Positions 26,187-51,072 of a stretch of DNA of 64,000 nucleotides are shown here, piece after piece (position 1 is the first letter of the stretch; every line of letters begins with the position of its first letter). The notes under the pieces were generated by a model, which worked only from the letters and a program-made list of their open reading frames with translations, was not told the DNA's origin and did no database searches. Source of the DNA: Arenibacter latericius DSM 15913 (lineage in GTDB: Bacteria; Bacteroidota; Bacteroidia; Flavobacteriales; Flavobacteriaceae). The stretch is from assembly GCF_000424985.1 (NCBI RefSeq), contig NZ_AUKX01000033.1, positions 1-64,000 on the forward strand, given 5' to 3'. Position numbers and translations under genes: made by a program.

Positions 26187-27692
26187 TTAATTATACCCAG
26201 GCGTTTGTTCCAACAATGGGTTTCTTCCGATCATATCCGTGGTAATAGGCAATACCATTTTGTATTCATCCCCAGGGCTTAAGAATTCAATATTGTCCAG
26301 TACATAATTGGTACCAGCCCTTCTTAGGTCCCACCATCTTTTACCTTCTCCAATAAACTCTTTATAGCGCTCATTAAGTATGGCATTGGTATTGTCTGTC
26401 TCGGAACCGTTGGTATAACCGTGGGTAAGAACATCATAATTATCCCCGTAGGCTCTCTCACGAATTTCGTTTATTTCGCCTGATGGATCTTCGCCCAAAA
26501 GGTTTTTGGCTTCAGCCAAAAGCAACAACACATCTGCATATCTATAAATTGGCACGTCATTCTCAAAGATTCTTTCGGAACCAACGATAGGACCAAGAAA
26601 TTTATTGAATACAGAGCCAAAATAGGCAGACTCGTCATAGGTAGGATATCCCGTTCCCCCGTTGTCGTCCGTGTATAACCTAATAAAAGTGGCATCCTTA
26701 CGGCTATCGTCATTGTCATCCAATAAAAGGATGGTTTTTTCGGACTGCCCGTAACGGTTGGCGCCATCGATTACAAAAGTTTCCATGGAATCCCCGTTAT
26801 CATTAAAAGTAGGGTTGATTTCCGTACTTCTACCGGTATGGCTATTGTAAAAGTTTTCAGCTTCGTCTTGCTTATAATCCAGAGCAAAAATAAACTCGAT
26901 GTTATCTTCATTGTCAACTCCCCATAAATCTTCAATACTAGGAGCTAAGTCCACACCAAGTGAGGCAATCTGCTCCAAAGCAGTTTTAGCCTCTGTAAAA
27001 TCGGCATTGCCGCCACCAAGTAAGTTTCCGGACCAGATGTAAACATCACCTTTAAGGGCCAAGGTTGCCGCTTTGGACCAATAGGACCTACTGCCCTCAA
27101 AAAAACTGTTGTCAGATCCAAAAGCACTCAAAGAGGCTGTTATGTCCGACTTGATCAAGTCCATTACCGCACTTTGTGGAGATCTTTCCCTAGCTAAGGA
27201 CGCAGGATCTACAACACCTAATGGTTCCAATGTAATTGGAACATCGCCCCATGTCTTCAATAAAGTGTAGTAATACAAGGCACGTAATCCGTAAGCTTGA
27301 CCTAACATATGGGTTTTGTCACCTTCATTAATGAAATCAATATTGGGTACATTTACCAAGAAATCGTTCAATCTATGGATTCTGGTATATAATCCTGCCC
27401 AACCTCCAAAAGGGGCCGTCGCTACCGTAATATCCGATCTGATCAAAGACTCGTTAAAAGGTGATTCAAAAGCTCTTCCGCCCCATATATCACTTCTAAT
27501 TTCTCCCAATAACCATAGGTTTTGGGCGGAAGATCTTAAGTTTCCGTACAAGCCCGAATGGGCGGTTCTTGCTCCAACTTCTGAATCCCAGAAACCTTGT
27601 GCCGTTAATTCACTGGGACTGGTCAGCTCCAATTCGCTCTCACATGCCCCTAAGGCAAATGAAACTATTAATATGTATATGTATTTTTTCAT
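26187..27692 (-). CDS. SusD/RagB-like lipoprotein, probable sialate uptake
   Basis: This 501-residue protein has a lipoprotein signal (IVSFALGACESE, Cys17), then the RagB/SusD pattern: SPSELTAQGFWDSEVGARTA, the TPR segment MLGQAYGLRALYYYTLLKTW, and the C-terminal SusD block IPIYRYADVLLLLAEAKNLL-like (VPIYRYADVLLLLAEAKN) and NERYKEFIGEGKRWWDLRR. It follows its SusC by 11 bases. Because the operon's promoter region carries the same operator as nanA and the epimerase, it is predicted to bind sialic acid or a sialo-oligosaccharide, like NanU of Tannerella and Bacteroides. That assignment is by context only. Confidence 0.92.
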   Translation of the reverse strand: MKKYIYILIVSFALGACESELELTSPSELTAQGFWDSEVGARTAHSGLYGNLRSSAQNLWLLGEIRSDIWGGRAFESPFNESLIRSDITVATAPFGGWAGLYTRIHRLNDFLVNVPNIDFINEGDKTHMLGQAYGLRALYYYTLLKTWGDVPITLEPLGVVDPASLARERSPQSAVMDLIKSDITASLSAFGSDNSFFEGSRSYWSKAATLALKGDVYIWSGNLLGGGNADFTEAKTALEQIASLGVDLAPSIEDLWGVDNEDNIEFIFALDYKQDEAENFYNSHTGRSTEINPTFNDNGDSMETFVIDGANRYGQSEKTILLLDDNDDSRKDATFIRLYTDDNGGTGYPTYDESAYFGSVFNKFLGPIVGSERIFENDVPIYRYADVLLLLAEAKNLLGEDPSGEINEIRERAYGDNYDVLTHGYTNGSETDNTNAILNERYKEFIGEGKRWWDLRRAGTNYVLDNIEFLSPGDEYKMVLPITTDMIGRNPLLEQTPGYN

Positions 27693-30700: not shown

Positions 30701-31003
30701 GTCTTCCTGTAGTACAACATCTATGGTGTTTTGGATGCCTACTGGAATACTTTGAGTTGTAAATCCAATATAGCTAAACACCAAAATAGCACCCTCGCTA
30801 GCTTGAATGCTGTAATTTCCGTCAAAGTCTGACTGAGTACCTGTTGTGGTGCCCTTGACTAAGACGTTAGCCCCAGGTAGAGGCTGCCCACTGCCATCGG
30901 AAATAGTTCCGCTGACTGTTTTTTCCTGTGCATACAAACCGCCCATAAATAGAAAGGCAGATAGTGCGAGCACATACTTCAAAAGTTTGTTTTTGTGTAT
31001 CAT
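27704..31003 (-). CDS. SusC/RagA-family TonB-linked transporter, probable sialate uptake
   Basis: This 1099-residue outer-membrane receptor has a signal peptide (YVLALSAFLFMGGLYAQE), a CarboxypepD-like domain (GTISDGSGQPLPGANVLVKG), TonB-box region LDEVVVTGYGSQTRA, a plug (IVLRGGTNFDGTGSP) and a barrel ending IGLNLTF. An EF-hand-like DQNGDGVINSLDRKAIG, usual in SusC proteins, occurs near the C-terminus, and an in-frame GCATCT-type hexamer repeat (28355-28375) encodes an Asp-Ala run. The gene diverges from nanA across 333 bases, and a 15-bp operator (31015-31029) lies 11 bases before its start. This links it to the nan regulon (NanO-like role), which is inferred. Confidence 0.95.
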   Translation of the reverse strand: MIHKNKLLKYVLALSAFLFMGGLYAQEKTVSGTISDGSGQPLPGANVLVKGTTTGTQSDFDGNYSIQASEGAILVFSYIGFTTQSIPVGIQNTIDVVLQEDSALLDEVVVTGYGSQTRATLTTSVSKLDTKILESSTRSNAATALQGTIAGLRVTNTTGQPGSTPQIVLRGGTNFDGTGSPLVLIDGIPGSFYALNSDDIESIEVLKDAAATAIYGARSANGVILVTTKTGKVGKSSINYKYKYSMNEERNDQKYIGAADFINYNRQSIAWYREAINNPGSFGAFLDGANAMGTGGNTIDSPFTTQLLNADNQYLLNQPGWNAIPDVLNPSQQILFYDNKTVGDRIYQTSASKDHYLSFDGGNEKGSYYLGLGYLDNDGLALGSGFKRYSGKFSGSYRISDKIKVNSNVLYSHSNLSRSPLGGDDTVFRRFQSQAPTSRTYDNNPDGTFSNTYTVGQNQGFGNPLYFQDKFIRKNLEQRLSASVGLDWNILDNLILAVNGSHFTINNHDESFNKAYRTGSTTGPLRTTREASVSLERTLRNQLTGTLNYTKRFDKHNFNALIGAEYFKNNFYTTFAGTRNSPSDLIPTLSEGAEADGVPFSFETEYVISSAFGRLLYDFDYKYLFSFTFRNDGSSRLGNNKTGFFPGVSLGWNLHNESFFSDSEISNTISRIKPRLSYGVNGNEEVLGGTQDIRGFNVPVNYGVFGAYGSQGIYSGQTGYANSLLPTLDLKWEKSTTLNAGLDISFFNDRLTIITDVYSRDIKDKLADLTLPYYTGFSSILTNNGTIRNKGFELQLNGDIIKNEDLTWNVGATITSNKNYVIKLPENANDLNRQNGQLIWNAKTGQEEWVGGLQEGQRVGNDLVFAYEQERIYTDQADADADAGIEDTFLPGDKFKHFAGDVKWKDQNGDGVINSLDRKAIGRITPDFLGGLTTSLRYKNFNLFVKTDFATGHLIWNHIRNKGYGQTQGNLNQPTEVLDSWTPNNTDTEWPRFVFVNGTKNVWRGGEGREYDDSSSLLNAGNAQFWEKGDYFALREVTLSYDVPSEYFKDVIKRLNIFVTGSNLHYFKSYTGETPEVGGIQYGAFPVPRTVTIGLNLTF

Positions 31004-31014
31004 TTTGTTAGTTC

Positions 31015-31029
31015 TTATGTATTACATAA
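31015..31029. promoter_or_regulatory. Operator copy 1 (susC side)
   Basis: TTATGT-ATT-ACATAA is a perfect 6+6 inverted repeat with a 3-base centre. It lies in the leader of the minus-strand susC gene, 11 bases upstream of its ATG. Three further copies precede nanA, the epimerase and the mutarotase-symporter. Binding by the FCD-GntR regulator at 39262-39981 is predicted. Confidence 0.72.
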
Positions 31030-31275
31030 TGCAATAATATCGAAAATATAAACATTAACAAAACTTTTTGATTTATTTCTAAGGGGTGAATTTTGAGATT
31101 TAAGGGGTAATTATTAGTCAAGTTTGTTAATATCTTATTTTAGTTAGTTGTTTTTTAATATTACTTTAATCTAATCTCAGATTGAGAATAATCTGGTTTA
31201 GCATTGTATCATTGGGGATTGTTGGGTTTAGAGGTTTTGGGATAAATAATTTCTATATTTCCGAAATAATATATA

Positions 31276-31306
31276 TTGTACAGCTCAAAATCTTTAATTA
31301 AGTTTG
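31276..31306 (+). promoter_or_regulatory. Promoter of the nanA operon
   Basis: TTG (31276-31278) and TAAGTTTG (31299-31306) match the Bacteroidota -33/-7 consensus with a 20-base gap. The operator at 31309-31323 begins 3 bases beyond the -7 box and would cover the transcription start, implying repression. Confidence 0.72.
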
Positions 31307-31308
31307 TA

Positions 31309-31323
31309 TTATGTATAACATAA
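31309..31323. promoter_or_regulatory. Operator copy 2 (nanA)
   Basis: TTATGT-ATA-ACATAA, a perfect inverted repeat directly downstream of the nanA -7 box. It is embedded in a longer string shared with the epimerase promoter (GTATTATGTATAACATAA, 31306-31323). Confidence 0.78.
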
Positions 31324-31336
31324 TTGAAAAATAGAT

Positions 31337-32239
31337 ATGAAAGGACTTATAGCAGCGACCTATGCACCAATGCACCAGGATTCTTCGCTTAATTTGGGGA
31401 TTATTCCACAGTATGCGGAATTCTTAATTGGTAATGGGGTTAAAGGCGCATTTATAAACGGATCTACAGGGGACTTCGCTTCACTGTCCGTTGCTGAAAG
31501 GAAAGAAATTACCACGGCATGGGGTGAAATTAAATCGACTGATCTTTTTGTTATAGATCATGTAGGGCATACCAGTTTAAAAGAAGCAAAGGAATTAGCT
31601 AAACACGCTGCAGATAAGGTAGATGGTATTGCTGCTCTTGCACCTTATTACTTTAGATTGTCTGATATTAATAAGTTGGTAGAATATTGTAAAGAGATAG
31701 CCGCTTGCGCTCCTAATATTCCTTTCTATTACTACCATATTCCTGTGCTAACAGGAGCAAATTTCAATATGGCAGAATTCTTAGAACTCGCTACCCCACA
31801 GATTCCAAACCTTGCCGGCATTAAGTTTACTAACAATAATCTTATAGATTATAAGTATTCCAAAGAATTTAACAATGGCTCTGCTAATATCCTTTTTGGG
31901 TTCGATGAAATATTGCTTTCTAGCTTGCCTTTTGGTGCAGATGGATGGGTAGGTAGTACTTATAATCATTTGGCGCCATTATACTTAGCTGTTATTGAAG
32001 CTTTTAATAACAACGATCATGAGTTGGCCGCAGATCTTCAACAGAAATCCATGAAATTTGTGGATACATTAAATGCTAAAGGCGGATTTAACGGTGCTGC
32101 AAAATCGTTTATGAAAGCATTAGGTCTAGATCTTGGTCCAAGTAGATTTCCACATGTTACGCTTACCGATTCACAGATAGAGGAGGCAAAGGCTGAATTA
32201 GATGCATTGGGAGTTACGTCTTATTTAGGTAAGATTTAA
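31337..32239 (+). CDS. nanA: N-acetylneuraminate lyase
   Basis: This 300-residue class I aldolase of the DHDPS/NAL family cleaves N-acetylneuraminate to ManNAc and pyruvate in the cytoplasm. It shows the GxxGE-type loop as FINGSTGDFASLS (residues 40-51), the catalytic Tyr in PFYYYHIPVLTG (near 132-133) and the Schiff-base K163 in NLAGIKFTNNN; the IKFTN context is the sialate-lyase form rather than the DHDPS form. It leads an operon of six genes on the plus strand that encode esterases, a hexosaminidase, a creatininase-like enzyme and sialidase, and shares an operator with the rest of the regulon. A strong promoter precedes it. Confidence 0.93.
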   Translation: MKGLIAATYAPMHQDSSLNLGIIPQYAEFLIGNGVKGAFINGSTGDFASLSVAERKEITTAWGEIKSTDLFVIDHVGHTSLKEAKELAKHAADKVDGIAALAPYYFRLSDINKLVEYCKEIAACAPNIPFYYYHIPVLTGANFNMAEFLELATPQIPNLAGIKFTNNNLIDYKYSKEFNNGSANILFGFDEILLSSLPFGADGWVGSTYNHLAPLYLAVIEAFNNNDHELAADLQQKSMKFVDTLNAKGGFNGAAKSFMKALGLDLGPSRFPHVTLTDSQIEEAKAELDALGVTSYLGKI

Positions 32240-32285
32240 AGGGATACAAGCCTTAAGCGAGTTTATTGTTCGCTCCCTGTGGAAG

Positions 32286-34379
32286 ATGAATTGTTTTAAC
32301 AGTATTAAATTGAGATATTTTTATTTGCTTACAATTTTACTTACTTTTTCTATGCAGGGACAAAAAATAAAAGTCGCCTGCGTAGGGAATAGTGTTACCT
32401 ATGGTACCCGGGTAGCAGAAAGGGAGCGAAACGCTTATCCTGTGCAATTACAGGAATTGCTTGGTGATAATTATGAAGTGGCCAATTTTGGTTATCCAGG
32501 AGCAACGGCACTTAAAAATGGGCATAAGCCCTATTGGGATAATCCTATTTTTAAGGAGTCTAAGTCCTTTCAGCCCAACCTAGTTATTATTCATCTTGGT
32601 CTTAATGATCAGGGGAATAATAATTGGCCAGCGCATAAGGAGGAATTTGTCTCTGATTATCTAGACCTAATTCAAGAATACAGAAACCTTCCTTCTTCTC
32701 CTGAAATTATTATCTGTAAAATGTCCCCTTCCTTTTCCGGTCATCATTGGTTTGAAGAAGGGATGCGCGAAAATTACCAGGAAATTCAAGCTAAAATCGA
32801 CACAATAAGAGAACTAGCAGGTGTTGATGTGATAGATTTACAAGAACCTTTGTATCGCTTCCCCGAATATTATGCAGATGATCTTCATCCCGCCAAGGAA
32901 GGAGCTACAATTATCGCTAATAAAATAGTTCGTTTTATAAGCGGGAATTACGGTGGATTAAAGCTTCCCTTGCTATATGGGGAAAATATGGTTTTCCAAA
33001 GAAATGTACCCTTGGTTATTAATGGTACGGCCAACGCTTTGGACAACATAACGGTACGTTTTAACGGTGAGACAATACGAACAAAAGTATCCCCGCACGG
33101 ACAATGGGAGGTGGCATATCCTGCTAAAGAGGCTGGCGGACCTTATAAGCTTTCTATAAAGTCTAAGAAATCGGGAGAGATTAGTATATCTAAAGTCTAT
33201 ATAGGCGAAGTGTGGCTAGCTTCCGGTCAGTCCAATATGGGTTTTAAAGTAAAAGATGAGCAAAACGCGACTTCTATCTTAAAAGATTCCCTAAATGCGA
33301 ATGTTTTCCTTTTTTCAATGGATCCTAAGGCGCATACCAGTAATCATACCTTTACAAAAGAAGAGTTGCAAAACAGTAATGCAGCAAATTATTTTGAGCC
33401 TTCTGGTTGGAGTAATAAGCCTGGTGCTATTATGGGAAATTTTTCTGCTATAGCTTATTCCTTTGCATATAACCTTCAAAAAGAACTAAATATACCCATA
33501 GGAATTGTAAATAACGCGGTAGGTGGTTCTACCACCCAGAGTTGGATTAGTAGGGAAGCTATGGAAACAACACACCAAACCATTAGTTTGCTAAATGATA
33601 CCCATCTAAATCCCTTGGTACAGCTATGGGTGTCCGAGCGAAAAGCAAAAAATTTAGCTAGCATGAAGGACTTTGGAATAAAAGCCAGACACCCTTTTGA
33701 TCCTACTATGTTGTTTGATGCGGGTATTTACCCTATTAAGGACTATGCTATAAAAGGTGTAATCTGGTATCAGGGGGAATCCAATGCAGAGCGAGAGGAG
33801 TTGCATTCTAAATTGTTTAAAATGTTGGTTTCCGATTGGCGTAATCATTGGAATAATCCAGACCTGGCATTTAACTTTGTACAGTTGAGTAGTATAAACA
33901 GGCCTAATTGGGGGGTGTTTAGGGATTCTCAACGGAGATTGTTGTCCATTCCCAATACAGGAATGGCCGTATCTTTAGATGTGGGGCATCCTACGGATGT
34001 GCATCCCAAAGAGAAGTGGGTATTAGGTAAACGCTTGTCTAATATCGCTTTAGCAAAGAATTATGGCTTTAATATTCCGCATTCAGGACCTTTATTAGAT
34101 TATGTGAATGTAAATAATAGCGTTTTGGAAATTCATTTTTCCCATGCAGACGGTTTAAGAACCAATGATGGGAAGGCTGTTCGGGATATAGAAATTGCTG
34201 GTGCCGATCAAGTATTTGTAAAGGCAGAGAGCCAAATTAATAATAATGTTTTAGAGGTGTGGAATAAGAGCGTTGAGAAACCAAGATATGTTAGGTATGG
34301 ATATAGTTCCTATACTGATGGGAATTTGATTAATAAACATGGTCTCCCTGCGTCTACTTTCTCCAATTTGGTAGATTAG
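32286..34379 (+). CDS. Two-domain sialate O-acetylesterase
   Basis: This 697-residue secreted protein has a signal peptide (YLLTILLTFSMQGQ) and two esterase domains. The first (about 28-218) is an SGNH/GDSL hydrolase: VACVGNSVTYG with S36, HLGLNDQG, and the Asp-x-x-His pair ADDLHPAKEG ending at H200. The second (about 230-690) is a sialate O-acetylesterase (SASA, PF03629) domain with EVWLASGQSNMGF (S315), IGIVNNAVGGS, and GVIWYQGESNA. It would remove O-acetyl groups from sialic acids so that sialidase and lyase can act. The fusion may target different positions or both free and bound sialates. It is 46 bases downstream of nanA, in the same operon. Confidence 0.88.
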   Translation: MNCFNSIKLRYFYLLTILLTFSMQGQKIKVACVGNSVTYGTRVAERERNAYPVQLQELLGDNYEVANFGYPGATALKNGHKPYWDNPIFKESKSFQPNLVIIHLGLNDQGNNNWPAHKEEFVSDYLDLIQEYRNLPSSPEIIICKMSPSFSGHHWFEEGMRENYQEIQAKIDTIRELAGVDVIDLQEPLYRFPEYYADDLHPAKEGATIIANKIVRFISGNYGGLKLPLLYGENMVFQRNVPLVINGTANALDNITVRFNGETIRTKVSPHGQWEVAYPAKEAGGPYKLSIKSKKSGEISISKVYIGEVWLASGQSNMGFKVKDEQNATSILKDSLNANVFLFSMDPKAHTSNHTFTKEELQNSNAANYFEPSGWSNKPGAIMGNFSAIAYSFAYNLQKELNIPIGIVNNAVGGSTTQSWISREAMETTHQTISLLNDTHLNPLVQLWVSERKAKNLASMKDFGIKARHPFDPTMLFDAGIYPIKDYAIKGVIWYQGESNAEREELHSKLFKMLVSDWRNHWNNPDLAFNFVQLSSINRPNWGVFRDSQRRLLSIPNTGMAVSLDVGHPTDVHPKEKWVLGKRLSNIALAKNYGFNIPHSGPLLDYVNVNNSVLEIHFSHADGLRTNDGKAVRDIEIAGADQVFVKAESQINNNVLEVWNKSVEKPRYVRYGYSSYTDGNLINKHGLPASTFSNLVD

Positions 34380-34424
34380 TAAATCCCAAATAATCCTTAT
34401 CTTTTAATTAACCTTAAAAAATTC

Positions 34425-36476
34425 ATGGAAACTATTTTTAATAATACATTTACTAAAAGCGTATATAAAGGACTAACGGTCTTGGTTGTAGCACTATTTT
34501 CTTTAAGTGTTAATGCGCAGATAGAATTTAATAAACTAGCTAAGAAATACCCTATAATTCCGACCCCGCAGGAAGTGGAGTATGGGAATAATGAAAGAGC
34601 TTTTAAATCCATTAGCATTATTAGGAACGATTTTGAAAACCTAGATTTGTCGCCACAAAAGGTGGTGGATTATGATGGAATCTGGGTGGAATCTAAAGGG
34701 ATGCGAATCCAATTAATAAAGGATGACCAACAACCTAATGAGGAAGGGTATTCTTTAAAAATTGATAAGAACATAACTATTACAGCACCTACCGTAAAGG
34801 GTGCTTATAATGGGCTTCAGACGTTAAGACAACTGATAAGAAGTAAAGGGAGAAGGTTTACCCTGCCTCAGGTAGATATAAAAGACTGGCCAGCCTTTAA
34901 GATCCGAGGTTTTATGCACGATACTGGACGTAATTTTCAAAGTATAGAACAACTAAAAGAGCAAATAGATATCCTTGCTCAATATAAATACAATGTTTTT
35001 CATTGGCATTTAACCGATGATCCAGGATGGCGTTTGGAAAGTAAATTATATCCAGAATTAAAAGCAGATAAATCTTTTAGCAGACACGTAGGGAAATACT
35101 ATACTCAAGAAGATTTCAAGGAAATATTGGCCTACTGTAAAGAGCGTCAAATAACCTTAATCCCTGAATTCGATATTCCAGGGCATACCAATGCCTTTAG
35201 AAAGGCTTTTGGGATTAAAACTATGAAGGAAGAAAGGGTGCTTCCTATTCTTATCGATCTTTTTGATGAGCTGATGGGGCTTGCCGATGCTGAAGAAATG
35301 CCATACATCCATATAGGGACCGATGAAGTAAGAAATGCGCCTGAATATGTGGAGGACGAGATGATTCTTACTCTAATGAATCACATAAAAAGTAAAGGGC
35401 GTGAGCTAATAGTTTGGAAGGAAGGTATTGTAATTGAAGAAGATTCAACCTCTATAAATCAACTTTGGGCACAGCATAATGTGCGTGAGGGACACCGATT
35501 TATTGATTCTAGAGCTAATTATATTAACCATTTGGATCCTTTTGCTGGGATGGCACGACTGTTTTTTCAGCAACCCTGTAGACAACCAGCTGGAGATTCA
35601 TTGGCTTTGGGAGGTATACTTTGTGCCTGGCCAGACAATAATGTGGCAGAGGAACGTGATATTTTAAAACAGAATCCAATTTATCCTTCTATAGTCTTTT
35701 ATTCAGATGCTATATGGAAGGGGAGAGAGAAAAATTATCCTGAGTACTGGGCTAAACTCCCCCCAAAAGGAACAGAGGAGTTTAATAGGTTTAAGCATTT
35801 TGAAGACAAAGTGGTAGTGCATAGGGATTTGTTTTTTAAGGGTAAAGAATTTCCTTATGTAAGGCAAACTGATGCTTCATGGAAGGTTGTAGGTCCTTTT
35901 GATCATAAGGGTGATCTTACAACTTCTTTTCCAGTTGAAAAGGAGCTAGCACCTTCTTATTTGGTGGATGGTAATGAGTATTCGTGGGACGATAGTCCTG
36001 TTGGAGGAACCATACATTTAAAGCATTTTTTCGGTTTCCCAGCAATCACAAACGCTAAAGATGGCACCTACTATGCTTATACTAAAATTTACTCCCCAGA
36101 AACTAGGGAACAGGCATTTTGGGTAGGATTCTATGGGTGGTCTAGATCTGGAGGTAGAAGGGGAGGACCCGCACCTAGTCTTGGACAGTGGCATATTACC
36201 GAGCCAAAAATTTGGGTGAACAATAAGGAAATCTTGCCCCCAGTTTGGAAACAGCCGGCATTGGCAGTAGCTACGGATGAGATTCCATTCGTAGACGAAG
36301 ATTATTTTTATAGAGAGCCCACTATGATAAAATTGAATAAGGGGTGGAATACTATACTATTGAAAGTTCCACATGGAGGTGGTTCCTGGAAATGGATGTA
36401 CACCGTAATGCCAATAGTCATTGACGGTAATGATGTTAGGGAAGTTACCGATTTAAAGTTTGATGCCTCCTTTTAA
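34425..36476 (+). CDS. Beta-N-acetylhexosaminidase, GH20
   Basis: This 683-residue protein has an N-terminal signal segment (LTVLVVALFSLSVNAQ), a GH20 N-terminal alpha/beta domain (about 40-155), and a TIM barrel beginning IRGFMHDTGRNFQ, with VFHWHLTDDPGWRLE and the catalytic Asp-Glu pair D300-E301 in IHIGTDEVRN. The 'GTDEV' form replaces the commoner 'GGDEV'. About 170 residues after the barrel (from about 490) form a beta-rich extra domain with no family I recognise. It would remove terminal GlcNAc or GalNAc from glycans after desialylation, in the periplasm or at the surface. It lies 45 bases after the esterase gene. Confidence 0.9.
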   Translation: METIFNNTFTKSVYKGLTVLVVALFSLSVNAQIEFNKLAKKYPIIPTPQEVEYGNNERAFKSISIIRNDFENLDLSPQKVVDYDGIWVESKGMRIQLIKDDQQPNEEGYSLKIDKNITITAPTVKGAYNGLQTLRQLIRSKGRRFTLPQVDIKDWPAFKIRGFMHDTGRNFQSIEQLKEQIDILAQYKYNVFHWHLTDDPGWRLESKLYPELKADKSFSRHVGKYYTQEDFKEILAYCKERQITLIPEFDIPGHTNAFRKAFGIKTMKEERVLPILIDLFDELMGLADAEEMPYIHIGTDEVRNAPEYVEDEMILTLMNHIKSKGRELIVWKEGIVIEEDSTSINQLWAQHNVREGHRFIDSRANYINHLDPFAGMARLFFQQPCRQPAGDSLALGGILCAWPDNNVAEERDILKQNPIYPSIVFYSDAIWKGREKNYPEYWAKLPPKGTEEFNRFKHFEDKVVVHRDLFFKGKEFPYVRQTDASWKVVGPFDHKGDLTTSFPVEKELAPSYLVDGNEYSWDDSPVGGTIHLKHFFGFPAITNAKDGTYYAYTKIYSPETREQAFWVGFYGWSRSGGRRGGPAPSLGQWHITEPKIWVNNKEILPPVWKQPALAVATDEIPFVDEDYFYREPTMIKLNKGWNTILLKVPHGGGSWKWMYTVMPIVIDGNDVREVTDLKFDASF

Positions 36477-36489
36477 TTGATAAAAGCGT

Positions 36490-37143
36490 ATGAAACCATT
36501 GTATTTTTTTATTGGATTTATATTAATGGCCTTAAGTGCAGAAGCACAGTCATTCTCTGACCATTATTATAAGCGGAAAGCACAATTTGAAGCGGAACCT
36601 GATACCCAGGGGGAAATAATCTTTCTAGGGAACAGTATTACCGAAGGTGGAGATTGGAGGGCACTATTTCCCAATAAAAATGTGGTGAATAGAGGAATAA
36701 GTGGCGATGTAACCGTGGGTATTCTCAACCGGTTATCCGAGGTAACCTCTTCCCAACCAAAAAAATTATTTCTTCTAATTGGGACTAATGATCTTGCTAG
36801 GGGGAAGACAGAATCTTATGTAGTAGATCATGTGGCATCCATTTTGCAGGAAATAAAAAGTGAATCGGGAAATACGGAATTGTTTTTGCAAAGTATCCTT
36901 CCTGTAAATCCTACAGTAGGTGATAAATTCATGGGTCATAAAAAGAATCAGGAATTGATAGTCTCCGTGAATAGCGTGTTAAAAGACCTTTCCAAGAGGA
37001 TGAATGTAAAATTTATTGATCTCCATAAAAAGTTTAGGAACTCAAAAGGAGAATTAAAAGCGAGATATACCCATGATGGATTGCATTTGAATGAGAATGG
37101 TTATCAGAAATGGAAGAAGGTCTTAAAGCCTTATCTAAAATAA
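36490..37143 (+). CDS. SGNH/GDSL hydrolase, probable sugar esterase
   Basis: This 217-residue secreted enzyme has a signal peptide (YFFIGFILMALSAEAQ). Block I is IIFLGNSITEGGDW with S49; block II GISGDVTVGIL; block III LLIGTNDLARGK with the oxyanion Asn; block V THDGLHLNENGYQKW with the catalytic Asp and His. This matches small SGNH esterases of the acetylhydrolase or sialate esterase type. It starts 13 bases after the hexosaminidase gene, so it probably removes O-acetyl groups from the same glycans. It is distinct from the N-terminal domain of the 697-residue esterase. Confidence 0.86.
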   Translation: MKPLYFFIGFILMALSAEAQSFSDHYYKRKAQFEAEPDTQGEIIFLGNSITEGGDWRALFPNKNVVNRGISGDVTVGILNRLSEVTSSQPKKLFLLIGTNDLARGKTESYVVDHVASILQEIKSESGNTELFLQSILPVNPTVGDKFMGHKKNQELIVSVNSVLKDLSKRMNVKFIDLHKKFRNSKGELKARYTHDGLHLNENGYQKWKKVLKPYLK

Positions 37144-37232
37144 ATTGGAGATATAGTGCTCAATTTTAAGGTATAGATTGTGTAACAACGGGTGAATCTG
37201 TACATTAAGGATCATTTTAAATAGAATAAACT

Positions 37233-38009
37233 ATGAAGAAGCAAAATATCAGACCTTACGTATTGGCAGAAAATAATTGGAAATCGGTAAAAGAAACCGA
37301 TTACCAGGTAGCTGTGTTACCATGGGGTGCAACGGAAGCCCATAATTATCATTTACCATATGCAACAGATAATATTTTAGCTGAAAATGTTGCGTTGGAA
37401 GCCGCAAAACAAGCTTGGGAAAATGGTGCGAAGGTGGTGGTGTTACCAACTATACCTTTTGGGGTGAATACTGGGCAGATGGATGTTAAGCTTTGTATGA
37501 ATATGAGTCCTAGTACGGAATATGCGGTTTTAAGGGATGTGGTACAGGTTTTGGACGCACAGAACATAGATAAACTAGTTATTGTAAATGGGCATGGTGG
37601 AAATAACTTTAAACAATTTATAAGAGAATTAAGTTTAGAGTTTCCAAAAGTGTTTGTCTGCGCTTTAAACTGGTGGAATAACACGGATCCGAAACCTTAT
37701 TTTGATGAACCAGGAGATCACGCTGGGGAATTGGAAACTTCCGTAGTTATGCATTTAACTCCACAATGGGTTTTAGATTTAAAAGAAGCTGGATCTGGAG
37801 CAGCCAAAACCTTTAGAATAAAAGGTTTAAAAGAAGGTTGGGTGTCCTCGCAACGTAGGTGGACACAAGTAACGGAGGATACCGGTGTTGGAAATCCGGA
37901 ATTGTCCACTGCCGAAAAAGGAAAGAATTTTTTCGAGGTTTCTGTTAAGAATATAGGAGAGTTTTTGGAGTCTCTTTCTAAAGCGGACGTTAATGATATG
38001 TACAAATAA
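37233..38009 (+). CDS. Creatininase-family amidohydrolase of unknown substrate
   Basis: This 258-residue soluble protein, without signal peptide, belongs to the creatininase fold (creatinine amidohydrolase, FAPy hydrolase, MftE-like). Metal-ligand motifs are visible: WGATEAHNYHLPYATDN (E35, H37, D46), VNGHGGNNFKQF and GDHAGELETSVVMHL. The fold opens cyclic or linear amides using two metal ions. Nothing in known sialate pathways needs this activity, yet the gene is embedded between an SGNH esterase and the sialidase in the nan operon. It could act on an N-acyl variant or a lactam of sialic acid, or on an amino-sugar amide. That is inference. Confidence 0.82.
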   Translation: MKKQNIRPYVLAENNWKSVKETDYQVAVLPWGATEAHNYHLPYATDNILAENVALEAAKQAWENGAKVVVLPTIPFGVNTGQMDVKLCMNMSPSTEYAVLRDVVQVLDAQNIDKLVIVNGHGGNNFKQFIRELSLEFPKVFVCALNWWNNTDPKPYFDEPGDHAGELETSVVMHLTPQWVLDLKEAGSGAAKTFRIKGLKEGWVSSQRRWTQVTEDTGVGNPELSTAEKGKNFFEVSVKNIGEFLESLSKADVNDMYK

Positions 38010-38068
38010 CAAATCATAAACACTTAAATAAGAGAATAGTAGAATAATTATAATTTAATAAACGTAAA

Positions 38069-39205
38069 ATGAAAAAAGTATTTTTTGGGCTGTTACTTGG
38101 TACCAGCATGATCTTATCAGGACAAACGGAGAAGCATAAAATTGCCGATGGAGTAAAGGTTTATCAAGACCTATTTAATGCTGACGAGGTAGATGGAGTA
38201 GCCTGTTTTAGAATTCCTGCGATTATTACCGCCCCTAATGGAGATCTTATTGCCGCTATTGATGAACGGGTCCCTGGTTGTGGCGACCTTAAATTTAGTA
38301 AAGACATCAATATTGTAATTAGAAGGAGTAGTGATAATGGGAAGACTTGGAGTGATATAGAAACTGTAGTGGACTTGCCATACGGACAGTCGGCTTCCGA
38401 TCCATCGCTTATAGTGGACCGCGATACCAAGGAAATTTTTATGTTCTATAACTATATGGACTTGGATAAGGAAAAGGATGTTTACTATTTCCAAGTTGTT
38501 AAAAGTTCTGATAATGGAAAAACTTGGACAAAGCCAGAGGATATTACTAGTCAGATTGCCAAAGAAGAATGGCATAAAGATTTTAAGTTTATTACCTCAG
38601 GACGTGGAATCCAGACTAGAGACGGGAAGTTATTGCATACTATGGTGAACCTAAATAGCGGACTTCATTTGTTTGCAAGTGATGATCACGGAAAATCTTG
38701 GTATTTAATAGACACGCCTATACAGCCTGCAGATGAGTCAAAAGTAATTGAACTTGCTGATGGTACTTGGATGATTAATGCTCGTGTAAATGGTGCAGGA
38801 ATGCGTTATGTGCATCGTTCAACTGATGAGGGTAAAACATGGACTACTGCAGAAGAACCAGAACTTATAGATCCTGGTTGTAACGCTAGTATAATAAGGT
38901 ATACTGCTATTGAAGACGGCTATAAGAAAAACAGATTGCTTTTTTCTAATGCAAAAATGGAAAAAGGAAGAATGAATATGACTGTTCGTGTGAGTTATGA
39001 TGAAGGAAAAACTTGGACAGAAGGGAAAACGATCTACTCAGGTGGTTCCGCGTATTCTTCTTTGACAGTGCTAAAAAATGGAGATATAGGATTGTTTTTT
39101 GAGCAAGATGGGTATACTAAGAATCCATATGTGAGCTTCTCCTTAAAATGGTTAACAGATGGTGATGATAAGTATAAGAAGCCTTCTAAGAGAAGGAGAA
39201 AATAA
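38069..39205 (+). CDS. Exo-alpha-sialidase, GH33
   Basis: This 378-residue secreted enzyme has a signal peptide (FFGLLLGTSMILSGQ). The sialidase FRIP motif is at 47-50 (CFRIPAIITAPNG), with the arginine that binds the sialate carboxylate. Five Asp boxes (S-x-D-x-G-x-T/S-W) are present: SSDNGKTW twice, SDDHGKSW, STDEGKTW and SYDEGKTW. QSASDPSL and the GGSAYSSL tyrosine region are as expected for a six-blade GH33 propeller. No extra carbohydrate-binding module is seen. It releases terminal sialic acid and is the last gene of the nanA operon, ending at a bidirectional terminator. Confidence 0.94.
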   Translation: MKKVFFGLLLGTSMILSGQTEKHKIADGVKVYQDLFNADEVDGVACFRIPAIITAPNGDLIAAIDERVPGCGDLKFSKDINIVIRRSSDNGKTWSDIETVVDLPYGQSASDPSLIVDRDTKEIFMFYNYMDLDKEKDVYYFQVVKSSDNGKTWTKPEDITSQIAKEEWHKDFKFITSGRGIQTRDGKLLHTMVNLNSGLHLFASDDHGKSWYLIDTPIQPADESKVIELADGTWMINARVNGAGMRYVHRSTDEGKTWTTAEEPELIDPGCNASIIRYTAIEDGYKKNRLLFSNAKMEKGRMNMTVRVSYDEGKTWTEGKTIYSGGSAYSSLTVLKNGDIGLFFEQDGYTKNPYVSFSLKWLTDGDDKYKKPSKRRRK

Positions 39206-39240
39206 TTTTAAAATTATTAACTTCATTCAATAAAGAGTAA

Positions 39241-39270
39241 AAAAATAGCGGGCATTGCCCGCTATTTTTT
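39241..39270. terminator. Bidirectional terminator between sialidase and regulator
   Basis: AAAAATAGCGGGC (39241-39253) pairs with GCCCGCTATTTTT (39257-39269) around a 3-nt loop. It serves the sialidase on the plus strand and overlaps the stop codon (39264-39262) of the minus-strand regulator gene. Confidence 0.88.
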
Positions 39271-39981
39271 ATTGTTTTTAAATATTCTATCGAAATGAGG
39301 TTCTAAATGCCTTCTCATAGCAACCCTAAAGGTTTCTGGGGTGCCTACTTTTAAATTATCCAATAACATTCTATGGGTAACAAACTGACCGCTAGAATAT
39401 TGATAATCTTTTAGATTGGTTTCACTCTGGTGAACAAACTCGAATACGGGGAGTAATAAATCTTGGAACTTTTTGAGGGTGGTGTTGTTAGACATTTCAT
39501 AGAGTTTCCCGTGAAATGCTATCTCCTTATCTAAAGAAAACATGCTCTTATTATAACTAGTCTCCTCTTCCAAGACTACAATTTTTTCTAAATCCTCTAT
39601 ATCCTTTTGGGTTTTATGCTCAAAAAGAAAATCGGCCATCCCCATTTCCATTATAAGTCGGAATTCAAATAAATTTTTCAGTGTGCCTGAAGCCAAAAGA
39701 GTGGGGTCTAACATGCGCTCAAAATTATGCATAATATCAGGGTTGGTGATAATCATTCCCCTGTGTTTCTTAGACTCAATTATCCCTAATGTACGCAAGC
39801 GTAGAATAGCCTCTCTTACTACAGTGCGACTAACCCCTAATGATTGGGCGAATTCCATTTCCTTAGGTATAGCATCACCCGCTTTTAAATTGTTTTCCTT
39901 AATAAACTGTAATAAACGCGCTTCTACTTTATCTGCAAGAGATAAGGTTTCTAAGGGTTCTATTTTTGAAAAATTATTCAT
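39262..39981 (-). CDS. FadR/FCD-family GntR regulator, likely controls the nan regulon
   Basis: This 239-residue protein has an N-terminal winged helix of GntR type (EFAQSLGVSRTVVREAILRL, then IESKKHRGMIIT) and a C-terminal FCD all-helical sensor domain (about 95-235) with the usual metal-site residues: EFRLIMEMGMADFLFEH, DKEIAFHGKLYEMSNN and HRMLLDN. FCD regulators such as NanR bind sialate or a downstream metabolite and lose DNA affinity. It is encoded inside the locus, divergent from the epimerase gene. The 15-bp inverted repeat found four times in the locus has the short palindrome shape expected of this family, so it is the prime candidate to bind it. Confidence 0.88.
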   Translation of the reverse strand: MNNFSKIEPLETLSLADKVEARLLQFIKENNLKAGDAIPKEMEFAQSLGVSRTVVREAILRLRTLGIIESKKHRGMIITNPDIMHNFERMLDPTLLASGTLKNLFEFRLIMEMGMADFLFEHKTQKDIEDLEKIVVLEEETSYNKSMFSLDKEIAFHGKLYEMSNNTTLKKFQDLLLPVFEFVHQSETNLKDYQYSSGQFVTHRMLLDNLKVGTPETFRVAMRRHLEPHFDRIFKNNKK

Positions 39982-40034
39982 AATATTGGTTGGTTTATTT
40001 TCATGACCAGCAAAGATTTCAATACTTCAAGGTG

Positions 40035-40042
40035 CAAAAATA
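40035..40042 (-). promoter_or_regulatory. -7 box of the regulator gene
   Basis: On the minus strand this reads TATTTTTG (TAnnTTTG), 53 bases ahead of the regulator start. No TTG is seen at the expected -33 position, so only one element is supported. Confidence 0.42.
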
Positions 40043-40126
40043 GCATTGTAATTGAATTATACTCCTTAAGTCAGTCTATTCTCAACTATTTCTAGAATAG
40101 AACACAACTAATATAAGAATATTTTT

Positions 40127-40134
40127 TAGATTTG
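40127..40134 (+). promoter_or_regulatory. -7 box of the epimerase gene
   Basis: TAGATTTG matches TAnnTTTG and lies 2 bases before operator copy 3, the same arrangement as at nanA. A -33 TTG is not evident. Confidence 0.6.
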
Positions 40135-40136
40135 TA

Positions 40137-40151
40137 TTATGTATAACATAA
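40137..40151. promoter_or_regulatory. Operator copy 3 (epimerase)
   Basis: TTATGT-ATA-ACATAA, identical to the nanA copy, 7 bases ahead of the epimerase ATG and just downstream of the -7 box. A bound repressor would block both initiation and the ribosome site. Confidence 0.78.
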
Positions 40152-40158
40152 GTTGATA

Positions 40159-41325
40159 ATGAAAAATTCTACTCTTTATAAAAATACCCTATTAAACGAT
40201 GTAATTCCGTTTTGGGAAAAACATTCCCTTGATTTGGAGCATGGAGGCTATTTCACCTGCTTGGATCAAACGGGGGAAGTGTTTGATACTGATAAGTTTA
40301 TATGGCTTCAAGGGCGACAGGCTTGGACGTTCTCGATGCTGTATAACCAAGTGGAGAAAAATCCAAAGTGGTTAGAAATTGCAAAATCGGGAATCGATTT
40401 TCTTAGGAAGCACGGTATGGACAAAGATGGAAACTTCTATTTCTCCGTAACCAAGGAGGGTAAGCCATTAGTGCAGCCTTATAATATTTTTTCAGATTGT
40501 TTTGCTGCAATGGCATTTAGTCAATATGCAAAGGCGACAGGTGATGAGGTGGTAAGAGAGTTAGCTAAACAGACTTACTATAATATCTTAAAGAAAAAGG
40601 ACAATTCTAAGGGGATTTATGAGAAGAATACGGATGTAAGACCTTTAAAAGGATTCTCTTTGCCGATGATTCTCTCTAATTTGGTCTTAGAGTTAGAAGA
40701 TGTTCTGGACAATGATGAAATAGAAAGAACCATAAACTTCAGTGTAAACGAAGTAATGGATGTCTTTTTGCAAAAAGATTCCGGTATTATATATGAATTT
40801 GTAAATCCAGATGGTTCTCTTAGTGATAGCTTTAACGGTCGGTTATTAAATCCTGGCCATGGTATTGAAGCTATGTGGTTCATGATAGATATAGGAGCTA
40901 GGAGAAACGATACGGAACTAATTGATAAGGCTACAAAGGTTATATTAAATATACTTGATTACAGTTGGGATGAGGAACATGGCGGAATTTTCTACTTTTT
41001 AGACGCTATGGGAAAACCACCGCAGCAGTTGGAATGGGATCAGAAACTATGGTGGGTTCATTTAGAAACCTTAGTGGCATTAGCAAAAGCTTATGAACAC
41101 ACCGGGAACAAGGAAATAGGAGAGTGGTACCAAAAAGTACATGACTATGCATGGACTCACTTTTCAGATCCAGATAACGGTGAATGGTTTGGATACCTCA
41201 ATAGGGAAGGAAAACCTTTACTGACCTTAAAAGGAGGGAAGTGGAAAGGATGTTTCCATGTACCAAGAGCTATGTTCCAATGTTGGAAGAGCTTTGAAAA
41301 CATAGAAGCAAAAGATAGTGAATAG
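40159..41325 (+). CDS. N-acylglucosamine 2-epimerase (AGE/RnBP family)
   Basis: The ATG at 40159 ([14 protein letters not shown]) gives 388 residues; an upstream TTG at 40153 overlaps the operator region and is disfavoured. The (alpha/alpha)6-barrel signature is clear: [55 protein letters not shown] with a catalytic His, and [18 protein letters not shown] with the second. It interconverts ManNAc and GlcNAc in the cytoplasm, the step after NanA, replacing the NanE/NanK route of enterobacteria. It is a monocistronic unit with its own operator and a good terminator. Confidence 0.92.
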
Positions 41326-41408
41326 GATTTAGTACATAGTATTGAGATTTGAGTGTTTATAGACCGATTGCTCGTACTTAACTTAGTTAGATCAATAAAT
41401 AATAAAGT

Positions 41409-41447
41409 AAGGCTTCTCCTTTAAGATCAAGGAGGAGCCTTTTTTTT
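41409..41447 (+). terminator. Terminator of the epimerase gene
   Basis: AAGGCTTCTCCTT (41409-41421) pairs with AAGGAGGAGCCTT (41429-41441), one wobble, followed by a T run to 41447. Confidence 0.88.
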
Positions 41448-42031
41448 GTAAAAACAAAACGGAGGGATTGTTTTATAGTATTAAGTACAAGGTAGTTAGG
41501 ATTAAGATTAGAATTTAGTAGTGAGAATTGAGTATTGAGTCCCTTATTAAGTTAAAGATCTCTTATCAAAAGAATTGGCTTGATCAGCGAACTCATGCTA
41601 GGACTTTATCATGCTTTTCGGAAGCGGACAATTTTTTTAAAATCTAAAAAATGGGGATTAATAGTAATTCAGAAATATGGCTTTATCCAAAGTCCTCCCT
41701 AGGCAAAGTGTTGATGGTTAAGTAGTTGGGTTTGCTTAGTGCCAATCTAAAACACCTTAACTTTGAAATATTATTTTTTAAGATTAAATAGTATGCGTTT
41801 CACTGGGCTTACTGCTAAAATAATTTATTGAATTAAAATTCTTGGCTATCGCTAAGGCTGGCTCCTCTAAGCCAAGGTATACCATACTAAGGAAGGGATG
41901 AATTAATTACCTTTTTTGCTATCTAAAATCTACTTTCCAATAGGGTTTTAACTATATTTTTTAAAGTATATTTCTGCTTTATTTTCTAACATATTTACAA
42001 AATGGACTATCTTAAAAATAAAATCCGCTTT

Positions 42032-42046
42032 ATATGTTATACATAA
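42032..42046. promoter_or_regulatory. Operator copy 4 (mutarotase-symporter)
   Basis: ATATGT-TAT-ACATAA matches the reverse complement of the nanA copy with one mismatch in one half. It lies 52 bases upstream of the ATG at 42099. The -7 box is not clear here; a TATCTTGT at 42059 is a weak candidate. Confidence 0.65.
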
Positions 42047-42098: not shown

Positions 42099-44711
42099 AT
42101 GAATATTCGTAAAGTTGTCTCTCTCTTAGTTTTGATTATTTTAATTTCTACTGGTCTATATGGGCAAGAAGAATCCAAAATAAAGCTGTCTAACCTACCA
42201 ACCTTACCAGCTGTTGAAGCAGGTAGTAAATCCTTAGGATTTGCAGGGATGATGGGCGGTGTTCATAATGGTGTGGTTATCGTTGCTGGGGGTGCTAATT
42301 TCCCAACAGGGCTACCGTGGGAAGGAGGAGCAAAGGTATGGTACAATTCTATCTATATTTTAGAGAACGATAGCTGGAGATTATCCTCTGAAACGCTCCC
42401 CTCACCTTTAGGATATGGGGCTTCTGTTTCTACTGATAAGGGAGTTTTAATTATTGGAGGAGATAATCAAGACCAAGTTAGCAGTAGCGTTTCTTTGTTA
42501 TCCTATAATCAATCTAAAAGTGACATTGAAATAACATCCTATCCAGATTTACCCGAACCCTTGGCCTATACTTCTGCTGTTTTGGAAGGCGATTATGTCT
42601 ATGTTGCAGGGGGGATGAATGCTGAAAAAAGCAGCAATTCCTTTTATCGTTTAAATTTAACGGAGAAAAAATCCTGGGAGAAATTGGAGGACTTCCCAGG
42701 AGAGCCACGCGCTCTTCAGGCCATGGTGGTGCAAGAAACCTCACACTCTAGAAACATTTTTTTAATAGGAGGTAGAAACCAGTCAAAAGGGAAAATATCT
42801 ACTCCTCTTACGGAATACCTTTCCTACGACCTCAATAAAAAACATTGGATTAATAAGGGAGATCTAAAAGTTAATGGCACGCCTAGGGTAATAATGGGAG
42901 CAGTAGCAGAGCCAATGGGGTCTATGCATGTGTTACTTTATGGAGGGTCTGATGACCTCTTGTTTACCCAATTAGAAACGTTAGGACAACAGATCAGTCA
43001 AGCTAATAATGATAGTATTGCCAAAAAGTTAATAGAAACAAGAGATCAGATATTAAATACTCACCCTGGTTTTAGTAATGAGGTTCTAGCATTTAATTCC
43101 ATTACAGATAAATGGTACGTGTATGATACGCTAAATGTAAAGCTACCCGTTACTACCTTAGGTATTAAAAAGGATAATGACTTTCTAATTGTGTCCGGAG
43201 AAATTTCTCCAGGTATTAGAACCCCTGAGGTGTATAGCCTAAGTGTGGATGAGCCTGCTCATACCTTTGGCGCCCTAAACTATATGGTCTTGGCACTGTA
43301 TCTTTTAATTTCGTTATTGATAGGAGTGTATTTTGCAAGAAAACAGAAATCTACGGATGATTATTTTGTGGGTGGTGGGCGAATTCCATGGTGGGCCTCT
43401 GGACTTAGTGTCTTTGGAACTTTATTAAGTGCCATTACTTTTATGGCCATCCCGGCGAAAGCATTTATAACGGATTGGTCGTTCTTTCTGTTAAATATTG
43501 CAGCAATTGCCATTACTCCATTGATCGCATTCTTGTTCATTCCATTTTTCAATAGAATGCATATATCAACGGCCTATGAATATTTGGAAAATCGCTTCAA
43601 TTATTTGGCTAGGGCTATTGGTAGTATTTCCTTTATTTTATTCCAATTAGGGAGAATAGGGATTGTGCTATTGTTGCCTTCTTTAGCAATTTCAATTGTT
43701 ACCGGTATCTCTGTTGAGACGTGTATCCTATTAATGGGACTCTTATGTGTGCTTTATACTGCATTCGGTGGAATAGAGGCTGTAATTTGGACTGATGTGC
43801 TACAAGTTGTAGTATTAATGGGAGGAAGTATTGTGGCAATAGTCTGGATTCTTTTGCATACAGATACCCCAGTAAATGAAATGATTGCATATGCATCTGA
43901 AAAGGAAAAGTTTCATATTATAAACTTCGATTTTAATTTTACCGATTCTACTTTTTGGGTAGTGTTTATCGGAGGCTTGGCTTCGGCCATGGTTACTCAA
44001 GGAACAGATCAGACTATTGTGCAGCGGTATTTAACGAGTTCAAGTATAAAAGACTCTCAAAAAACCCTATATACCAATGCCTTGTTAACGCTTCCTGCTA
44101 CAATTATATTTTTCGGTATCGGTACACTACTTTATATATTTTATACAGAAATGCCAGAAAGACTCTCTCCTGCAATTTCTAATAACGACTCCCTATTTCC
44201 ATGGTATATAGTAAAGGAGCTGCCTGTAGGGGTGTCTGGCTTATTGATAGCCGGAATTTTTTCTGCTGCTATGTCTAGTATTAGTAGTAGTTTAAATTCG
44301 GTTTCCACCGCTTTTTGTAATGACCTTTACAAGCGTTATGATCCTAAATTAAGTGACATTGGTATGTTAAAAATTGCACGTATCGTCACCGTCTTTGTAG
44401 GAATTTTTGGAGTGCTTTTAGCGTTATGGATGGCTAACTCTAATATAAAATCGCTTTGGGATCAATTTTACAGGTTCCTAGGACTGTTTACTGGTGGTTT
44501 AGGAGGAATGTTCCTATTGGGGATGTTAACTAAACGTGCCAACAGTACAGGCACCTTGTTGGGATTGGTAGTTAGTGGTATTTTGTTATGGTATATAAGT
44601 GTGTATACTTCCATTAACTTTTTAATGTATTCATTTATAGGAGTGGCTTCTTGTTTCGGTTTCGGTTATGTGTTTAGTTTATTTTTTAAAGACAAAAAAT
44701 CACAGGGATAA
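42099..44711 (+). CDS. Sialate mutarotase (kelch) fused to SSS sodium symporter
   Basis: The ATG at 42099 (MNIRKVVSLLVLIILISTG) gives 870 residues with a signal peptide; a GTG at 42066 is disfavoured. Residues about 25-395 form a kelch propeller of the cyclically permuted mutarotase family (NanM-like): LPTLPAVEAGSKSLGFAGMM, YVAGGMNAEKSSNSFYRL, IFLIGGRNQSKG. Residues about 400-870 are a sodium:solute symporter with some 13 membrane segments, including GGRIPWWASGLSVFGTLLSA, TAYEYLENRFN and FSAAMSSISSSLNSVSTAF, where the Ser pair marks the sodium site. The propeller would sit in the periplasm and feed the transporter. It carries operator copy 4 and is convergent with the sensor gene, one base apart. 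Confidence 0.92.
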   Translation: MNIRKVVSLLVLIILISTGLYGQEESKIKLSNLPTLPAVEAGSKSLGFAGMMGGVHNGVVIVAGGANFPTGLPWEGGAKVWYNSIYILENDSWRLSSETLPSPLGYGASVSTDKGVLIIGGDNQDQVSSSVSLLSYNQSKSDIEITSYPDLPEPLAYTSAVLEGDYVYVAGGMNAEKSSNSFYRLNLTEKKSWEKLEDFPGEPRALQAMVVQETSHSRNIFLIGGRNQSKGKISTPLTEYLSYDLNKKHWINKGDLKVNGTPRVIMGAVAEPMGSMHVLLYGGSDDLLFTQLETLGQQISQANNDSIAKKLIETRDQILNTHPGFSNEVLAFNSITDKWYVYDTLNVKLPVTTLGIKKDNDFLIVSGEISPGIRTPEVYSLSVDEPAHTFGALNYMVLALYLLISLLIGVYFARKQKSTDDYFVGGGRIPWWASGLSVFGTLLSAITFMAIPAKAFITDWSFFLLNIAAIAITPLIAFLFIPFFNRMHISTAYEYLENRFNYLARAIGSISFILFQLGRIGIVLLLPSLAISIVTGISVETCILLMGLLCVLYTAFGGIEAVIWTDVLQVVVLMGGSIVAIVWILLHTDTPVNEMIAYASEKEKFHIINFDFNFTDSTFWVVFIGGLASAMVTQGTDQTIVQRYLTSSSIKDSQKTLYTNALLTLPATIIFFGIGTLLYIFYTEMPERLSPAISNNDSLFPWYIVKELPVGVSGLLIAGIFSAAMSSISSSLNSVSTAFCNDLYKRYDPKLSDIGMLKIARIVTVFVGIFGVLLALWMANSNIKSLWDQFYRFLGLFTGGLGGMFLLGMLTKRANSTGTLLGLVVSGILLWYISVYTSINFLMYSFIGVASCFGFGYVFSLFFKDKKSQG

Positions 44712-47697: not shown

Positions 47698-47871
47698 AGG
47701 GTTGTTACTCTTCGTTTAGGGTAAATATATGTAATATGCTATTAAATCTATGGTTTACAAGGAATTTATGTTGAAGAATGTTATTAAATTATTAATTAAA
47801 TGTAACCTTTTTGTAATCCTATGTAACCTAAATTTATACCTATATTATCTTAATTTTCTGTTAATATAATT

Positions 47872-51060: not shown

Positions 51061-51072
51061 ATATAAATTAAG

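Follow-up and report, generated by a model that had tools for sequence, protein, structure and literature searches.

A palindromic TTATGT-N3-ACATAA site as the proposed operator of a GntR/FCD regulator in the sialate locus of Arenibacter latericius and other Bacteroidota

Introduction

NanR of Escherichia coli, a GntR/FCD protein with sialate targets, binds (GGTATA)n direct repeats and carries a 32-residue N-terminal extension (PMC8012715), while NanR of Bacteroides thetaiotaomicron (BT0433) is a ROK-family protein with a predicted role in sialic acid and N-acetylglucosamine (GlcNAc) control (PMC3878776). Here we describe a 15-base palindrome, TTATGT-N3-ACATAA (TTATGTNNNACATAA), in a sialate locus of Arenibacter latericius DSM 15913 that encodes its own GntR/FCD regulator; the stretch analysed, hereafter the window, comprises 64,000 nucleotides (contig NZ_AUKX01000033.1, positions 1 to 64,000). 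From comparative sequence analysis we propose that the palindrome is the operator of this neighbouring regulator, which would be a NanR-like repressor, and we put the probability of this reading at roughly 0.9.

The regulator resembles E. coli NanR in its GntR/FCD architecture, its sialate targets, matching Arg/acid/His sensor positions and a similar predicted fold, but its site is palindromic, the two proteins share 21% identity over their structural alignment, and its GntR domain begins at residue 15. Upstream of the four transcription units of the window locus, the only GGTATA found is a pair of overlapping copies at 41876-41883, well away from the site. BT0433 comes from the same phylum and is likewise linked to sialate control, but is a ROK protein, whereas the window regulator matches, besides GntR and FCD, only two other helix-turn-helix (HTH) families at an E-value of 0.001, and no ROK model. 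Since E. coli NanR recognises direct repeats and Bacteroides NanR belongs to the ROK family, the regulator and operator described here form a separate pair.

PdhR, LldR, GlcC and FadR combine, as the window regulator does, a GntR winged HTH and an FCD domain with a palindrome of GT-N3-AC core and the usual spacing of the subfamily; here, by contrast, the half-site is TTATGT, that is ATGT rather than TKGT, and the target is a sialate locus. The GT-N3-AC core is of the FadR-subfamily type, with TKGT-N3-ACMA operators (PMC4494728), and that survey, in its available text, counts no FadR-subfamily regulators from Bacteroidetes and treats NanR separately, as a protein that binds direct repeats. The Bacteroidetes NanL/NanE-II/RokA pathway with NanOU uptake (PMC10017367), in which N-acetylneuraminate (Neu5Ac) is converted to N-acetylmannosamine (ManNAc) and then to GlcNAc (PMC10017367, PMC5583593), is matched in the window by a lyase, an epimerase of the N-acylglucosamine 2-epimerase (AGE) type that acts without prior phosphorylation, and SusC/SusD uptake, all predicted from the genes; the window locus differs in having its own GntR/FCD regulator and a mutarotase-symporter fusion. 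In searches of an open-access library, neither a GntR-type NanR nor this motif was evidently described for Bacteroidota, although subscription papers and regulon databases lay outside the search and may hold an earlier prediction. The genome paper of Flaviramulus ichthyoenteri (PMC4324048) mentions sialate genes, and the word GntR is absent from its available text.

Results and Discussion

Four sites in one sialate locus

The initial annotation had reported three perfect copies of the palindrome and one copy with a single mismatch, and both the coordinates and the shuffling controls bear this out. Each site precedes a different unit of one sialate locus. The sequence TTATGT-ATT-ACATAA lies at 31015..31029, 11 bp upstream of susC on the minus strand, and TTATGT-ATA-ACATAA occurs both at 31309..31323, 13 bp upstream of nanA, and at 40137..40151, in the divergent region between the regulator and epimerase genes and 7 bp upstream of the epimerase ATG at 40159. 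The fourth copy, ATATGT-TAT-ACATAA at 42032..42046, departs from the motif at one end position and lies 52 bp upstream of the mutarotase-symporter ATG at 42099 (these gaps use preferred start codons; the open reading frame list gives GTG 42066 for this last gene). Three perfect copies compare with a shuffle mean of 0.02, and four copies with at most one mismatch with a mean of 0.54, neither count being reached in any of 100 shuffles. Two-mismatch sites in the window showed a weak excess (14 against 7.5 by shuffling, reached in 4 of 100 shuffles) and were dropped.

A scan of the whole genome (4,478,801 bases in 104 contigs), which had been suggested as a check, revealed no scatter of perfect copies, the three in the sialate locus being the only perfect ones, while the reversed control pattern has one perfect occurrence.

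Placement of sites relative to promoters

At nanA and the epimerase gene the site had been said to start 2-3 bases after a TAnnTTTG box, and in both cases a probable -7 box on the plus strand (TAAGTTTG at 31299..31306 for nanA and TAGATTTG at 40127..40134 for the epimerase) ends exactly 2 bases before the operator. The nanA box has a TTG 20 bases upstream of it, at 31276-31278. The probable -7 box of susC, TATTATTG at 31032..31039 on the minus strand, has one mismatch to TAnnTTTG and likewise stands 2 bases before its operator. Among the 150 sites compared, an exact TAnnTTTG box adjoins 45 and ends exactly 2 bases before the site in 36; it occurs on the opposite side of 6 of the 150 and at 46 of 5000 random intergenic points. 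This spacing fits a repressor covering the transcription start, and lends support to the repressor-like position that had been proposed from the window alone.

A regulator that binds these sites but activates transcription, or that represses some units and activates others, is unlikely in our judgement. It would suit the site at 42032-42046, given its 52 bp distance from the start codon and the lack of a good upstream box by eye, as well as the 105 of 150 sites, with two of the four window sites among them, that have no adjoining exact box; with the box missing at so many sites, placement over the transcription start is not established for every site. Where boxes are clear, however, they end 2 bases upstream of the operator and so place it over the transcription start, and the E. 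coli protein acts as a repressor from a position downstream of the polymerase site (PMC8012715), both of which favour repression.

The arrangement of sites is similar in other genomes. In 44 loci of the same family, sites precede SusC in 33, the epimerase in 30, NanA in 22 and the mutarotase-symporter in 14, and several of the sites before the symporter share the end mismatch of the fourth window copy. Many of the more distant titled loci (Pontibacter, Pedobacter, Dyadobacter, Chitinophagaceae and others) have a single site, which separates the regulator gene from a susC-susD-nanA operon that diverges from it. Although one mismatch was allowed anywhere, the G, T and C of the GT...AC core are present in all 150 sites and the A in 148, with 55 deviations falling on the two end bases and 13 on the ten inner fixed columns.

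As a separate observation, sites before an alpha-galactosidase gene (L124, 10041-10055) and a sulfatase gene (L128, 9269-9283), and a one-mismatch site before a gene for a phospholipase C-like phosphoesterase (L125, 13311-13325), mark possible extra regulon members.

Sites follow the regulator gene

We mapped stretches of up to 20 kb around regulators, together with 40 titled loci (L176-L215), nearly all from Bacteroidota, and a phylum sample. Within the genus, the regulator was matched in 15 of 18 genomes, with identities of at least 70% in 14, and by hand comparison 13 of these 14 have a perfect copy within about 15 kb of the regulator; for the fourteenth, G304, the fetched stretch contains one-mismatch sites but no perfect one. 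Within the family, the regulator was found in 29 of 299 genomes (E 1e-20) and a NanA homologue in 30 (E 1e-60), both being present in 27, and an even sample of the phylum yielded the regulator in 16 of 395 genomes (E 1e-40).

An intergenic site with at most one mismatch is present in the fetched locus of 84 of the 95 regulators with at least 43% identity, and of none of the seven below 43%. By identity class, the counts are 35 of 36 at 60% or more, 35 of 41 at 50-60% and 14 of 18 at 43-50%. Identities are rounded and relative to the window's regulator, the window itself being left out of the counts, and sites up to 60 bases into a predicted frame count as intergenic. The locus counts omit L176, L178 and L179, which duplicate L108, L079 and L080, and regulators of 200 residues or fewer, such as the partial one in L125; the motif counts omit L216-L255, which are 25-32% matches. 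G468 has four regulator copies, of which two were mapped; of the others, one is cut by the stretch end and one lies on another contig.

Of the first two sets, 75 loci have a regulator of at least 45% identity; 62 of these hold 83 perfect intergenic copies between them, whereas 29 palindromes with permuted half-sites average 0.03 copies (one copy in all) and the reversed pattern is absent. Counted over whole genomes, perfect copies number 50 in 28 regulator-bearing genomes, where the reversed pattern has 30, and 15 in 25 genomes with no regulator match, where it has 23. Such counts alone are a weak test and the signal lies in clustering: by hand count, 36 of the 50 copies lie within about 25 kb of a regulator. 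Two genomes of the same genus as A. latericius each have two separate loci with their own regulator copy and their own sites (L103 and L109 in G305, L110 and L117 in G302).

The palindrome might instead belong to another factor, either a global Crp-like protein or a second FCD regulator, with the neighbouring regulator gene there by coincidence. Sites of the GntR and of the Crp type are alike in being short, AT-rich palindromes, but we regard this explanation as very improbable, because a global regulator would be expected to have more than three perfect copies per genome, site presence follows the GntR/FCD gene, and in G302 and G305 the two regulator copies lie on different contigs, each with its own perfect sites. 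The only other FCD regulator found in the A. latericius genome has a different palindrome, ACTTGT-ACT-ACAAGT, upstream of its own gene, in a locus with GH32, aldolase, aminotransferase and sugar kinase genes.

The scan of related loci also brought out natural absences. In G032, G183 and G249, which have a NanA homologue and no regulator match, the 20 kb surrounding nanA hold no site with at most one mismatch, and tblastn at an E-value of 1e-6 found no regulator there. Sites and regulator gene show both co-occurrence and co-absence, and in relatives the perfect copies cluster round that gene. G032 is the most telling of the three, though it is a single event. It keeps side by side nanA (62% identity) and the genes for the epimerase (76%), sialidase (71%) and symporter (70%), with no SusC/SusD found in the stretch, and its one perfect copy of the palindrome lies elsewhere, with no locus protein within 1.5 kb. 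In G258, from the same genus, the regulator is present and sites precede SusC and the epimerase.

These absences also bear on the notion that the inverted repeats are RNA hairpins or parts of promoters and not protein sites. The repeats are indeed short and adjoin promoter boxes, but the four 15-mers fold as RNA at only -1.1 to -1.3 kcal/mol, nanA loci with no regulator match have no sites though the nan genes remain, and permuted palindromes are practically absent (1 copy for 29 patterns), leaving this explanation with a negligible probability.

The regulator and its probable ligand

The locus had been said to encode one FCD-GntR regulator, from the family to which NanR belongs. The protein in question (P0001, 239 residues, 39262..39981 on the minus strand), the proposed NanR-like repressor, has an N-terminal GntR winged HTH (PF00392, 59.6 bits, cut-off 27) and a C-terminal FCD domain (PF07729, 46.5 bits, cut-off 24.3), so the GntR/FCD assignment holds. 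Orthology to E. coli NanR does not, as judged by the NCBIfam NanR model (NF003011), against which the protein scores 95.4 bits and fails to reach the cut-off of 260. Its AlphaFold2 model is helical, with a mean predicted local distance difference test (pLDDT) score of 84.3, and in Foldseek it matches FCD regulators in general, E. coli NanR included (6on4_A, E 2.1e-6), so that NanR is not singled out by the structure search.

Residues of the Neu5Ac and zinc site of E. coli NanR are named in PMC8012715, and by hand mapping R128, H176, H222 and H244 correspond to R108, H157, H203 and H225 of the window protein, and D172 to E153. All five are unchanged in all 48 aligned rows (alignment A2 does not contain L195, L197, L199, L201, L202, L204, L206, L207, L208, L211 and L214). 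The window protein also shares F168 and L245 of the E. coli pocket, while seven further contacts, named below, differ. A carboxylate bound through a metal is a plausible ligand for the regulator, Neu5Ac being the obvious one.

ManNAc-6-phosphate (ManNAc-6-P), which the initial annotation had named as a candidate effector beside Neu5Ac, is unlikely. The epimerase (40159..41325, plus strand) is of the AGE, NanE-II type (NF052547, 658 bits, cut-off 600), and the NanE model retrieved no ManNAc-6-P epimerase of that type from the genome. ManNAc thus probably passes straight to GlcNAc, giving a direct route from Neu5Ac through ManNAc to GlcNAc. Because this route probably skips ManNAc-6-P, that compound is a poor candidate for the inducer, which is probably sialic acid.

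The switch that we propose would work as follows. A regulator dimer would bind the palindrome with one winged helix per half-site and, where the box is clear, would cover the transcription start and block initiation. Four units would be repressed, namely susC-susD, nanA to the sialidase gene, the epimerase gene and the mutarotase-symporter gene; we infer this operon structure from the sequence, and the regulator may also affect its own gene through the divergent region. With sialic acid in the cell, its carboxylate would probably bind the metal-containing FCD pocket, the dimer would come off the DNA, and uptake, cleavage and conversion to GlcNAc would be switched on together.

Besides the missing promoter boxes, a number of observations weigh against a NanR-like repressor acting at this operator. 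In the A. latericius genome the motif is not enriched when one mismatch is allowed (20 sites against 25 for the reversed pattern), and the evidence consequently consists of the perfect copies and the clustering. Sixteen of these 20 sites lie outside the sialate locus, and none of the sixteen deviates at an end base, unlike the variant sites of relatives, most of which do; of ten inspected, eight lie within long open frames and two do not. Eleven of the 95 closer regulators have no site within reach, among them L089, which is on a short contig, and L098, where the same genome has a one-mismatch site at its nanA on a different contig. The loci are related, so that the 84 of 95 and the other locus counts are not independent draws. 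Genomes with nanA and no regulator are few (three), the NanA proteins of G183 and G249 are distant (43 and 40%), and the G183 match contains a stop codon. Finally, seven sialate contacts of E. coli NanR (N165, I200, R203, H214, N215, S218 and Q221) differ, and the inducer could therefore differ too.

The pairing of regulator and proposed operator recurs in many other Bacteroidota, where it appears as a fairly conventional gene switch with a wide comparative record. For environmental Bacteroidota it offers a testable sialate regulon with exact operator positions, in which nan genes may be recognised by their operator; the sialate regulator described from gut Bacteroides belongs to another protein family.

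Related palindromes and possible changes of target

Regulators below 43% identity are accompanied by a second palindrome. ATTTGT-N3-ACAAAT, with at most one mismatch, occurs with six of the seven, in five loci beside NanA homologues, and is perfect in L101, L102 and L291 and has one mismatch in L118 and L119, in all cases within about 140 bp of the regulator gene. In the 43-60% classes it is found in 6 of 59 rows, and it is near the regulator also in L279 and L284, the latter without a TTATGT site. Five distant regulators form one branch of the tree (support 100), the long branches making their placement unsure. The distant regulators have SRN in the HTH and a wing resembling SRTNRGI, against SRT and a wing resembling SKKHRGM. 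In L099 and L100, two loci whose regulators have 45-46% identity, SRN is combined with an SKKRKGM wing and the sites are still of the TTATGT class, implicating the wing more than that residue. These few cases give a lead, and suggest that the wing sets the half-site class; the pairing of two operator classes with two wing classes is a hint as to which part of the regulator sets the half-site.

L099 and L100 are also the loci of G297 and G144, the two genomes of the family sample with the regulator and without a NanA homologue, and nan genes were not found in the 20 kb mapped. L099 has genes for GH28, a symporter, myo-inositol oxygenase, NAGLU and GH43, and L100 also has a GH28 gene. L283 groups with these two (support 99; the three regulators are at 45-47% identity) and keeps the TTATGT class. 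That L099 and L100 retain the site without nan genes indicates that an operator can stay while the pathway changes. We see an even chance that a widespread FCD lineage of Bacteroidota has changed operator and target pathway separately: most members examined would run sialate loci with TTATGT-N3-ACATAA, the branch of L099, L100 and L283 would keep the site, with no nan genes in reach in L099 and L100, and another branch would have kept NanA with ATTTGT-N3-ACAAAT and an altered wing. If true, this would provide a natural series for reading the FCD recognition code and the sensor code apart.

Gene content of the window locus

On the minus strand, susC (27704..31003) encodes a SusC/RagA TonB-linked outer-membrane transporter (TIGR04056, 769 bits, cut-off 368) and is followed by a gene for a SusD family lipoprotein (26187..27692; PF07980), probably in the same operon. 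The remaining genes described here lie on the plus strand. The nanA product (31337..32239; PF00701) is an N-acetylneuraminate lyase of the NanA/NanL-like type in the DHDPS family, and its best NCBIfam matches are N-acetylneuraminate lyase models, with scores under their cut-offs. It is followed by genes for a sialate O-acetylesterase with SASA and GDSL domains (32286..34379; PF03629, PF13472), a GH20 beta-hexosaminidase (34425..36476; PF00728), a GDSL esterase (36490..37143; PF13472), a creatininase-family amidohydrolase (37233..38009; PF02633) and a BNR sialidase (38069..39205; PF13088). The creatininase-family amidohydrolase is a frequent member of sialate loci, and in seven loci from the same genus (L111-L117) a site lies in the divergent region between its gene and that of the regulator.

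The gene at 42099..44711 encodes a fusion of a cyclically permuted, NanM-like sialate mutarotase with a sodium/solute symporter (PF24996, PF00474), which scores under the cut-off of TIGR03548 and over that of TIGR00813. A frame matching it is present in 69 of 100 mapped loci, and in 39 it has at least 800 residues, as in the fusion. After the sialate locus, from 44713 to 58106, comes a second locus, of polysaccharide type; it encodes a further SusC/SusD pair, two sulfatases and a protein that has two-component-regulator propeller and Y_Y_Y domains.

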